Origin: Candidatus Zixiibacteriota bacterium
GTDB taxonomy: Bacteria > Zixibacteria > MSB-5A5 > GN15 > FEB-12
NCBI GenBank assembly: GCA_022571985.1
Contig: JACZWU010000003.1
Span: 62,001 to 126,000, forward strand
Reading direction: 5' to 3'
DNA: 64,000 nt
The position numbers and the translations under genes are program-made. Numbering within the stretch: position 1 is the stretch's first letter; every line of letters begins with the position of its first letter. Positions 54,038-62,030 of the stretch are shown here, piece after piece. The notes below the pieces were generated by a model that made no database searches, had not been told where the DNA came from, and worked only from the letters and a program-made list of their open reading frames with translations.

Positions 54038-54139
54038 GTAGGTCAGGAGTCTTGTCCTGAGCGAAGTCGAAGGGCTTGCACTCCTGACTTTTATTGTAGA
54101 AGCGTCAGGACCACGCCAAGTAGGCGGGTCCTGACCTAC
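54038..54139. repeat. REP pair with an insert (GTAG-foot family)
   Basis: GTAG with GTCAGGAGT and ACTCCTGAC forms the first hairpin. Its loop is enlarged by a segment that ends in GTCGAAGGG and belongs to the other palindrome family. The second hairpin (GTCAGGACC with GGTCCTGAC, then CTAC at 54136-54139) has a loop with AGGCGG. Apart from the insert the copy is colinear with that at 50774-50851. Confidence 0.75.
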
Positions 54140-58578: not shown

Positions 58579-59388
58579 TTGAATCAGGTAAGAGCTTCAC
58601 GGCTGGAACAGCCGCAGAGACGGCAACAAGGTTTTATGTCGGACAAATTGCCCTATGGCTCCTGGCAGCGCCGCTTTGTTTTTTGGCTTATCGCTCCGAC
58701 TATTGTCATTTTAATTCTTTACTGGCTGACAAATTCTGTCCTGATGCCAATTATCACGCGCCACGGCGACGAGTTTGTGCTGCCGGACTATATCGACCAG
58801 AAACTGGTCGAAGTTCAGTTGAAGCTGGAACAACTGGGGCTGGGCTATGAGATTGCATCGGAAGAATTCTCTCCCGGCAAAGAAAAGGGCATTATCTTAA
58901 ATCAGTATCCGATTCCCGGCACAAAGGTAAAATCCCAGCGCGCCATCAAATTTATTATCTCGCTTGGACAAAAACTTGTGCCAATTCCGGAATTGTCCGG
59001 CTTGTCGGTGCGGCAGGCGATGCTTGATCTGGAGACCGCCGGTTTGGAACTGGGTGAGATTGCCTGGGCGCATTCCGATACTTTGCCTGAAAAAGTTGTG
59101 GTCTTTTCTTACCCGGCCGGCTCAACCGAAATCCCGCTGGGCTCGCCGGTTAACATTATGGTCAACCGCGGGCGGGCCTCGAACTTTACTTATATGCCGC
59201 GAGTGGTTGGCATGCAGCTAAGCGAAGCGGAAATGCTTCTGGAAGAAAAGATTTTGAAACTGGGGCTGGTAACTTACCGCCGCGATGAAAACTATCTGCC
59301 CGAAACGGTACTGGAGCAATCCGAGAGAGAAGGCAGCGAACTTGACAACTGGACCGAAATAGATCTGGTGGTCAGCAGCACGGAGTGA
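58579..59388 (+). CDS. Membrane-anchored PASTA-domain protein
   Basis: This 269-residue protein has one transmembrane segment near residues 30-52 ('FVFWLIAPTIVILILYWL'). Three PASTA repeats follow, each about 65 residues with a 'VP...G...A...L...GL' pattern (for example 'PELSGLSVRQAMLDLETAGL'). PASTA repeats usually bind muropeptides or beta-lactams and are found on Ser/Thr kinases; no kinase domain is present here. The TTG start at 58579 has ACGGGA upstream; an in-frame ATG at 58636 after AAGG is also possible. Confidence 0.8.
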   Translation: MNQVRASRLEQPQRRQQGFMSDKLPYGSWQRRFVFWLIAPTIVILILYWLTNSVLMPIITRHGDEFVLPDYIDQKLVEVQLKLEQLGLGYEIASEEFSPGKEKGIILNQYPIPGTKVKSQRAIKFIISLGQKLVPIPELSGLSVRQAMLDLETAGLELGEIAWAHSDTLPEKVVVFSYPAGSTEIPLGSPVNIMVNRGRASNFTYMPRVVGMQLSEAEMLLEEKILKLGLVTYRRDENYLPETVLEQSEREGSELDNWTEIDLVVSSTE

Positions 59389-59404: not shown

Positions 59405-59643
59405 CGAGTAGGTCGAAACCCGCCTCCTGGGTGTGGTTTCGACACCTTCTTACCGTTACTTTCGTGAGTGAGTAGGTCGAAACCCGCCTCCCAGGTGGTG
59501 TTTCGACATTTAAACTAATCTTTGGATTCACATTAAACAAAACGAGCAGGTCAAAACCTCACGATAGCGGGATGGTTTCGATATCTTCATTGCCTTACTT
59601 TCATGAGTAGGTCAAAACCCGCCTCCTGGGTGTGGTTTCGACA
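59405..59643 (+). repeat. Array of four REP hairpins (GTAG-foot family) upstream of the transposase gene
   Basis: Four copies begin near 59406, 59470, 59544 and 59605, spaced 61 to 74 bases apart. Copies 1 and 2 read GTAG then GTCGAAACC, a loop containing CGCCTCC, and GGTTTCGAC or a close variant. Copies 3 and 4 have GTCAAAACC and one mismatch. The spacer also repeats (TTACTTTCGTGAGT and TTACTTTCATGAGT). They lie directly upstream of the REP-associated transposase. Confidence 0.85.
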
Positions 59644-59711
59644 TTCTTTCTCTATTTCACATATCGATAGCAGACTATTGCTACCAGGATATTCTTCTAT
59701 ATACTTGTTAC

Positions 59712-60215
59712 ATGACAAACATAAGACGATATTTTCGTGATGGCGACGTCGTTTTCGTAACCAATGTTACGCATAATCGCATGCCAATCCTTGTAGATAA
59801 TTTTGACCTGCTTTGGAAAGCTGTCGAAACAACCAATCTGAAAACTCGATTCGAAATTATTGCCTGGTCTATTTTACCTCACCACTTCCATATGATAGTT
59901 GACCCCAAAAACAACAATCTTTCGTCACTTATGAAGCGTATAAAACTATCGTTCTCTTGGCACTATCGAAAAAGAGCTGGTTTGGTAAAAGGACGAGTCT
60001 GGCAGAATAGATTTTGGGACCATATTATCAGAAGTGAAGAAGATTTGAATAAACATATCGACTATATACATTACAATGCGGTTAAGCATGGGTTGATTTC
60101 AAACACCATCGATTGGAAATATTCTTCATTTCAAAATTATTATGAGGATGGACTATATTCGAAGGATTGGGGCTCAACTGAAAAATTCTCATTTTCTGGA
60201 GAATTCGGTGAATGA
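59712..60215 (+). CDS. REP-associated tyrosine transposase (IS200/IS605-like, RAYT)
   Basis: This 167-residue protein is a Y1 HUH endonuclease. The metal pair is in 'ILPHHFHMIVDP' (His58-Phe-His60). The RAYT signature 'RVWQNRFWDHIIRSEEDL' (residues about 95-112) is followed by 'HIDYIHYNAVKHGL' with the likely nucleophile Tyr118. RAYTs cut single-stranded REP hairpins at a GTAG foot and can spread REP elements, but they are not classical mobile transposases. It is flanked by five matching hairpins and closed by a terminator. The residues needed for activity look intact. Confidence 0.93.
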   Translation: MTNIRRYFRDGDVVFVTNVTHNRMPILVDNFDLLWKAVETTNLKTRFEIIAWSILPHHFHMIVDPKNNNLSSLMKRIKLSFSWHYRKRAGLVKGRVWQNRFWDHIIRSEEDLNKHIDYIHYNAVKHGLISNTIDWKYSSFQNYYEDGLYSKDWGSTEKFSFSGEFGE

Positions 60216-60227
60216 GGTGCATTAGGA

Positions 60228-60264
60228 TGTCGAAACCTCACCCAGGAGGCGGGTTTCGACCTAC
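60228..60264 (-). repeat. REP hairpin directly downstream of the transposase, inverted
   Basis: GTCGAAACC and GGTTTCGAC flank a loop with AGGAGGCGG, and CTAC follows at 60261-60264. It begins 12 bases after the transposase stop codon and is inverted relative to the four upstream copies, so the gene is bracketed by matching hairpins. Confidence 0.85.
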
Positions 60265-60281
60265 TCCAACAAAGGCCTCAT

Positions 60282-60532: not shown

Positions 60533-60605
60533 TTTGTAGGTCAGGAGCCTTGTGCTCCTGACGGTAACATCAAGAGTCAGGACTGCAAGAGTCCTGACCT
60601 ACAAA
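60533..60605. repeat. REP pair (short-loop GTAG-foot hairpins, inverted)
   Basis: Hairpin 1 is GTAG, GTCAGGAGC, a 5-base loop and GCTCCTGAC. Hairpin 2 is GTCAGGACT, GCAAG and AGTCCTGAC, ending in CTAC. The outer TTTGTAGGTCAGGA and TCCTGACCTACAAA form a perfect 14-bp inverted repeat. This is the short-loop variant of the same family as at 50774 and 54038. Confidence 0.8.
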
Positions 60606-60629
60606 AATTTTGAAACAAGTACACTTTGA

Positions 60630-60671
60630 CCCTTCGACCCCGGTCGGGACTGTCGCAGGCTCAGGGTGACT
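60630..60671. repeat. Palindrome CCCTTCGAC...GCTCAGGGTGAC
   Basis: It starts CCCTTCGAC and ends GCTCAGGGTGAC as at 54002-54024, but has an extra internal segment of about 20 bases. It lies directly upstream of the ffh leader. Confidence 0.6.
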
Positions 60672-60701: not shown

Positions 60702-62030
60702 ATGTTTAACAACCTGTCGGAAAAATTAGAAAGCGTCTTTAAGAAGCTTCGCTCTGTCGGCAAGCTCTCGGAGAAAAATATCCAGGAGTCAATGCGCGAG
60801 GTCCGTCAGGCCTTGTTAGAAGCGGATGTTAATTATAAAGTCGCCCGTGATTTTGCCAAAGCTGTGCAGGAAAAAGCTGTCGGACGAGAAGTCCTGGATT
60901 CTATTGATCCCGGGCAGCAGGTCATAAAAATAGTTCATGACGAACTGGTTGCACTTTTGGGGGGCAGTGCCGAGCCTCTGGCTCCGGTTGATAATCCACC
61001 GACTGTTTTTTTGATCTGTGGTTTACAGGGTTCAGGGAAAACAACTCTGGTCGGCAAGCTGGCTTTGATGTACAAGCGCAAAGGTAAAAAGACGCTGGTT
61101 GTAGCGGCCGACATATATCGTCCGGCGGCGGTCAAGCAGTTAAAAGTTCTGGCAGACTCAATTGACGTTGAACATTTCTATCTTGAAAACAAAACCCCGC
61201 AAGAGATATGCAGCGCCGCTCTCAAGTATGCTGAGAAAAACTTTATCGATCTTGTAATCTTAGATACTGCCGGCCGAATGCATGTTGACGCCGAAATGAT
61301 GACCGAGATAACCGAAATAAAAGAGCAGACCAGCCCTCATGAAATTTTACTGGTGGCGGACGCCATGACCGGTCAGGATGCTGTCAATGTCGCCAGAGAG
61401 TTTAACGAACGTCTGAGTATTACCGGCGTTGTACTTTCCAAGCTTGATGGTGACGCCCGTGGCGGCGCGGCGCTATCTATCCGTCAGGTAACAGGCTGCC
61501 CGATTAAGTTAGCTTCGGTGGGCGAAAAGCCGGGAGATCTGGAAGTTTTCCACCCCGACCGTCTGGCCTCCCGCATTCTGGGCATGGGCGATATTGTCGG
61601 CCTTGTGGAAAAAGCACAGGAGCATATTGATCTAAAAAAAGCCGCCGAGATGCAGGAGAAACTTCTTAAGGCACATTTTGACTTTGAGGATTTCTTAGAG
61701 CAGATGGCTCAGTTAAAAAAGATGGGGCCGCTTGAATCAATTATGGGCATGATTCCGGGAATCGGCAAAGCCATGAAGAATATTCAGGTTGATGAAAGAG
61801 CCATGGACCGCATGGTTGCTATCGTACAGTCGATGACAATCCAGGAAAGACAAAACCCGCACCTTCTTGATGGTTCACGCAAAAAAAGAATAGCGATTGG
61901 CTCGGGCAACTCGGTGCAGGCGGTCAATCAATTGATTAAACAGTTTAATGCAATGCAAAAAATGTTCAGCAGTATGAATAAAGGTAAACGAAAAGGCATG
62001 TCAAAAAGTATGATGCCGTTTTTTAATTAA
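60702..62030 (+). CDS. ffh: Signal recognition particle GTPase
   Basis: This 442-residue protein binds signal sequences and 4.5S RNA and delivers ribosomes to FtsY. The N domain (residues 1-90) is followed by the GTPase with G1 'LICGLQGSGKTTLVGKLAL', G3 'LDTAGRMHVD' and G4 'SKLDGDARGGAALS'. The C-terminal Met-rich M domain follows, with 'AMKNIQVDERAMDRMVAI'. The length is normal. It is first in the ffh-rpsP-khpA-rimM-trmD operon. Confidence 0.97.
   Translation: MFNNLSEKLESVFKKLRSVGKLSEKNIQESMREVRQALLEADVNYKVARDFAKAVQEKAVGREVLDSIDPGQQVIKIVHDELVALLGGSAEPLAPVDNPPTVFLICGLQGSGKTTLVGKLALMYKRKGKKTLVVAADIYRPAAVKQLKVLADSIDVEHFYLENKTPQEICSAALKYAEKNFIDLVILDTAGRMHVDAEMMTEITEIKEQTSPHEILLVADAMTGQDAVNVAREFNERLSITGVVLSKLDGDARGGAALSIRQVTGCPIKLASVGEKPGDLEVFHPDRLASRILGMGDIVGLVEKAQEHIDLKKAAEMQEKLLKAHFDFEDFLEQMAQLKKMGPLESIMGMIPGIGKAMKNIQVDERAMDRMVAIVQSMTIQERQNPHLLDGSRKKRIAIGSGNSVQAVNQLIKQFNAMQKMFSSMNKGKRKGMSKSMMPFFN

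Follow-up and report, generated by a model that had tools for sequence, protein, structure and literature searches.

In the REPtrons described so far (Nunvar 2010, PMC2817692; Corneloup 2021, PMC8266576), a Y1 HUH gene lies within an inverted bracket of GTAG-footed REP hairpins, further REPs are dispersed over the genome, and the gene keeps its place while diverging faster than its neighbours. All of these features recur at the locus analysed here, which lies in a 64-kb window (the whole stretch of DNA under study) from a Candidatus Zixiibacteriota bacterium. It departs from the known REPtrons in its phylum, in its low copy number, in the solitary state of its cognate REPs, and in that several REPtrons with different stems occur across the Zixiibacteriota. 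The locus is a genuine REP/RAYT of the known REPtron kind in a little-studied phylum, ordinary in kind and informative in detail. Candidatus Zixiibacteriota is absent from the GTAG-REP survey consulted for comparison, and our literature search found no paper naming both REPs and Zixibacteria. The locus adds a phylum with near-universal RAYT relatives (detected in 118 of the 132 genomes searched) and with REPs typed by stem. Dozens of its RAYTs are paired with hairpins of differing stems, which is sufficient to propose, for how a RAYT recognises its own REP, residue-base-pair readings that are testable with short oligonucleotides.

E. coli TnpA-REP (PDB 4er8; group 2, subclass 2.2) resembles the protein described here in fold, in length (165 versus 167 aa) and in its YIHYN motif; its GTAG contacts W-Q, H and R are also present, E100 of E. 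coli corresponds to D, and in both systems the REP is long and its stem bulged. The two proteins are, however, only about one third identical, and the irregularity is a 1-nt side bulge here and a two-base mismatch in E. coli. On the same outer stem, relatives that are 57-59% identical to our RAYT have hairpins that are short and perfect; the distinction between bulged and perfect REPs therefore does not track RAYT clades here. Among other Zixiibacteriota, REPs of 27 nt also have perfect stems of 9 bp immediately after GTAG, like those of the group 3 TnpA-REP of S. maltophilia (PMC8266576), but whereas fixed loop bases are required in Sm and Mb, the Zixiibacteriota loops vary widely in length and sequence on one stem.

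The RAYT gene and its hairpin bracket

The ORF listed in Table 1 is a RAYT (TnpA-REP), an identity well supported by the combination that defines such proteins: a Y1 HUH nuclease, a score as a REP-associated tyrosine transposase and intact catalytic residues. It reaches 130.7 bits against NCBIfam NF047646 (REP_Tyr_transpos, REP-associated tyrosine transposase; cut-off 80 bits), and among PDB sequences only E. coli TnpA-REP 4er8 is related to it at E<0.001 (phmmer, E=3e-26). The same structure is the top Foldseek match of the AlphaFold model (mean pLDDT 90; E=3e-14), followed by the ISDra2 and IS608 transposases. The Y1 HUH motifs, which a sequence-only reading of this DNA had called intact, are all present (H58-F-H60, Y118, N122), and W97, Q98, D103, H104 and R107 align with the GTAG contacts of E. 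coli TnpA-REP, for which we relied on the catalytic and contact residues named in PMC8266576 and PMC6006769. Both histidines, Y118, N122 and the five aligned contact residues show little or no variation among 18 relatives.

Table 1. Features of the RAYT locus and its surroundings (positions within the window)
Feature	Position	Strand	Details
PASTA-domain protein gene	58579-59388		left neighbour of RAYT
REP hairpin 1	59408-59443	+	GTAG foot, perfect 9-bp stem GTCGAAACC/GGTTTCGAC; -11.4 kcal/mol as DNA, z -4.9
REP hairpin 2	59472-59507	+	same family, bulge position shifted; -11.9 kcal/mol, z -4.4
Degenerate REP	59546-59582	+	stem-A outer stem, GCAG foot, different inner module; z -2.0
REP hairpin closest to RAYT gene	59607-59642	+	GTCAAAACC, one stem mismatch; z -1.8
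RAYT (TnpA-REP) gene	59712-60215	+	167 aa; HUH H58/H60 and Tyr118 intact
Inverted REP hairpin, right bracket	60229-60264	-	directly 3' of RAYT; perfect 9 bp, z -5.0
REPIN, stem B (GTCAGGA..)	60536-60602		two inverted GTAG hairpins; neighbour, outside the RAYT bracket
ffh	60702-62030		right neighbour of RAYT

The sequence-only reading had correctly delimited the locus as 59405-60266 and had described four hairpins upstream and an inverted one downstream, each with GTAG at its foot, with matching stems and a shared CGCCTCC. This description fits the downstream copy and three of the upstream copies, which have the outer stem GTCGAAACC/GGTTTCGAC (stem A) in common; the remaining upstream copy is degenerate, folds weakly and departs from it in its foot and in its inner module (CTCACG...GGGAT), a module found intact on REPs of the genus. 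The second hairpin has a single mismatch if its stem is read in the 9-bp register; alternatively, its bulge is shifted. That the RAYT is bracketed by matching REPs was nonetheless well seen: the 871-bp segment contains four GTAG hairpins against 0.014 expected by chance (500 dinucleotide shuffles, maximum 1), and the whole window 12 against 0.9 expected. Folded as DNA (-11.4 kcal/mol, z about -5), the perfect copies have an outer stem of 9 bp and an inner stem of 4 bp, set apart by a single bulged nucleotide on the 3' side, and end in a loop of 5 nt; the reading of a 14-nt loop was dropped in favour of this fold. When 37 long REPs of the genus are aligned, 97.1% of cells pair, as against 90.4% in shuffles and at most 44% in slid alignments. 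Base-pair covariation in this set extends to 7 of the 13 pairs, which have changed on both sides; these changes fall mostly in the outer stem, and the inner stem varies chiefly between G-C and G-T.

Synteny, dispersal and turnover

The order PASTA gene-RAYT-ffh is common to four species of the genus. The RAYTs of the three other species share 74-80% protein identity with ours and the flanking proteins about 93-97%; the RAYT evolves faster than its flanking genes. The inverted bracket is kept in all four species, with between 1 and 3 GTAG hairpins upstream of the gene, depending on the species. The same place between the PASTA gene and ffh in four species argues for vertical inheritance without movement of a single-copy gene, so that the description of a self-contained locus holds for the bracketed RAYT and fails for mobility. 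Altogether the genome (G000) carries three RAYTs. The second (L149; contig C1, about 408.4 kb) is bracketed by GGCAGAACC (stem C) hairpins, which are the sole two exact copies in G000; in the sister genome G002, the RAYT syntenic to it contains an in-frame TAG, although the GGCAGAACC hairpin is present there in 14 copies. The third, distant RAYT (L032; contig C10, about 18 kb) is without GTAG hairpins, and on both of its sides are inverted CCCACAGC(TTG)CTGTGGG repeats, whose foot is GGTC-like.

If the hairpins were the dedicated substrate of the RAYT, as had been proposed, copies would be expected elsewhere. The exact stem-A pattern indeed recurs, with 13 copies on 7 contigs of the 2.93-Mb assembly (17 contigs; reversed control 0), and it is present in 37 of 60 related genomes; near matches in the same assembly number 29 when both stem families are counted (control 2). 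This dispersal makes a dedicated substrate plausible. Eleven genomes that possess an A-stem RAYT contain more stem-A copies than 8 in which no RAYT was detected (Mann-Whitney p=0.0009, with genome lists compiled by hand). REPs generally number >100 per genome (PMC2817692), an abundance that is usual rather than defining and that the 13 exact copies do not reach. Away from the RAYT gene, the exact stem-A copies of this genome are solitary and include no REPIN pairs, that is, no cognate REPs in close inverted arrangement. Few copies and solitary dispersed REPs make present-day activity doubtful, and the RAYT and its stem-A REPs are likely to be only weakly active at present.

A second family, built on stem B (GTCAGGACC), comprises 29 REPs in the same genome (GTAGGTCAGGA..TCCTGAC), among which are 6 exact REPIN pairs with spacers of 5-16 nt. 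Comparison with the sister species G002, which is collinear over 80 kb at about 88% nucleotide identity, had been expected to reveal copies absent from one genome. Most REP sites do differ between the two, and the stem-B REPIN of Table 1 is absent at its place in G002; the presence/absence differences seen are those of the second family, and none amounts to an empty site that is perfect to the base. The intergenic regions compared with G002 yielded neither clean target-site duplications nor exact empty sites, because they are too rearranged. RAYTs with B-type bracketing stems are present in G001 and G002. At the position where the sister species carry it, G000 lacks the B-stem RAYT and has about 2.2 kb of unrelated DNA instead (L193; contig C3, about 134-136 kb), so that the 29 stem-B REPs are orphaned unless another RAYT serves them in trans. 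A count with and without the transposase, as proposed earlier, thus shows these REPs persisting after the loss of their RAYT, a loss already suggested for such orphan REPs by Nunvar 2013 (PMC3686654).

The sequence-only reading had also taken GTAG for the place of cutting. This was mistaken: characterised TnpA-REP proteins cut not at GTAG but at a nearby CT dinucleotide, one of them also at CA (PMC8266576), and GTAG is a recognition or guide foot rather than the cut site. In the REP flanks of this genome, GA stands nearly always 5' of GTAG for stem A, and CT or TT for stem B, a difference possibly tied to the choice of cut site. GA as a family-specific cut dinucleotide is at most a tentative reading, since it precedes GTAG in just 26 of the 55 loci collected in all.

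Outer stems, inner modules and candidate recognition residues

The CGCCTCC..GG module behind a GTAG foot (at most 2 mismatches) is found in 28, 12 and 21 copies in three genomes of the genus; matches outside the genus are scattered and no more frequent than in the reversed control. It is carried by stems A and B and, in one G002 copy, by stem C, and a second inner module is likewise found on stems A and B. One orthologous REPIN has a long-loop right hairpin in G000 and a short-loop one in G002. These exchanges indicate that the evolution of outer stems is uncoupled from that of inner modules. As a RAYT-specific mark the CGCCTCC 'loop' is ruled out by its occurrence on three stems; it is a mark of the genus. 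Length variants with self-complementary loops inside one stem family are already known (PMC3733652), and a non-exhaustive literature search found no case of one module common to several stem families.

Among 58 RAYT loci that are bracketed on both sides, nearly all of them from Zixiibacteriota, 46 have the same 8-nt stem arm left and right (38 of 45 in the first locus set; permutation mean 5, maximum 14), RAYT distance correlates with stem distance (Mantel r 0.44, 0/2000), and in 49 of 61 cases the stem of the nearest RAYT differs by no more than 1 nt (chance 10.1), all of these statistics being inflated by association by descent. Of 164 four-residue windows, none predicts the stem among 89 RAYTs as well as residues 2-5 once whole-protein distance is controlled for (partial r 0.45; for the best window in permutations, the 95% limit is 0.13). 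The signal of these residues is 0.44 after dropping relatives with at least 65% identity and 0.47 when the GTCGGGT clade is dropped as well; in the full set, the next non-overlapping window is residues 97-100. N-termini of the form MT[NEKD]IRR go with GTCGAAA stems, M[KR][ST][LF]RR with GTCGGGT, and MSKL[LIK]R mostly with GGC/GGT stems. Leads for single pairs are bp2-R5, bp4-T2, bp5-I4 and bp8-K75/L79, and the associations of bp1 and bp3 depend on few variants. L79 aligns with E. coli K82 (position read from the 4er8 alignment), a residue that in the crystal structure makes contact with the bulged base (PMC8266576). Residues 1-5 have a pLDDT <50 in the apo model, which might fit a flexible DNA-binding arm.

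The outer stem, and not the inner module, appears to carry specificity and to be read by an N-terminal arm (residues 2-5), the 97-100 region and the helix with residues 75/79. In phylogenetically independent sign tests of single residues against stem bases, the direction is consistent, with 2-3 supported independent pairs and no significance; with so few supported contrasts, the residue 2-5 code is a strong lead and not proof. A roughly colinear code, in which residues 2-5 and the 95-100 region would read the foot-proximal pairs and helix 75/79 the distal ones, with inner modules freely exchangeable between the REP families of one genome, has in our estimation even odds of being right. The proposal of a dedicated substrate set is well supported, if indirectly, for the dispersed hairpin, whose stem varies with the RAYT across the phylum, and falls for CGCCTCC; the stem-A hairpins are the predicted dedicated substrate of this RAYT.

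Alternative readings of the locus

With a probability of roughly 0.87, we consider the locus to be a REPtron: a RAYT nuclease that is encoded at one locus, inherited vertically and accompanied by its cognate REP hairpins. The gene family, the matched bracket, the dispersed copies, the coevolution of stem and protein, the fixed position and, for stem B, the turnover of REPs all support this at the level of sequence, and we infer from it the binding, cutting and dissemination of REPs by the RAYT. The protein would bind the hairpin as single-stranded DNA, in one orientation, by way of its GTAG foot and outer stem, Tyr118 would cut a nearby dinucleotide to yield a 5'-phosphotyrosine, and the RAYT would then rejoin the strands; REP copies would occasionally be gained or lost elsewhere, the RAYT gene itself staying put.

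The fixed place of the gene in four species, the few and solitary stem-A copies, the second RAYT (L149) whose two bracketing hairpins are its only exact copies, and the 29 stem-B REPs that outlast their RAYT could also be accommodated by a domesticated, inactive pair, the RAYT being retained for another function and the stem-A REPs being immobile relics. We regard this as the less likely reading: the bracket stems stay paired and matching in spite of a protein divergence well above that of the flanking genes, which suggests ongoing selection on recognition, and all catalytic residues of the RAYT are retained. Under the REPtron reading, the hairpins may possibly have a secondary RNA role, since REPs can act on mRNA (PMC3733652), and their positions are 3' of the genes for the PASTA protein and the RAYT. 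That they are ordinary transcription terminators or stabilisers of mRNA 3' ends, among which the RAYT lies by chance, is nevertheless very improbable, as no T-run directly follows the stems in the stretch inspected, the GTAG foot is on one side only, and stem identity follows RAYT type throughout the phylum, both in the nearest-RAYT test and in the match of left and right arms. An insertion sequence of the mobile IS200/IS605 kind, its hairpins being subterminal, would have the same Y1 HUH fold and an inverted bracket of this transposon-like appearance, yet it stands next to no chance, because the ORF, far above the NF047646 cut-off, reaches 26 bits against the IS200 model (cut-off 55 bits), the gene is a single copy at one syntenic site and does not move with its ends, and identical hairpins lie on both sides and are dispersed without the gene.

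Other repeats accompany the REPs of this genome. At 54038-54139 of the window, a REPIN orthologous to one in G002 has a 24-bp insertion, CCTGAGCGAAGTCGAAGGGCTTGC, in the loop of its left hairpin, and this insertion resembles another dispersed repeat. A further dispersed repeat, CCCTTCGAC...GCTCAGGGTGA, is found at 60629-60669 and in other intergenic regions, beside several REPs.
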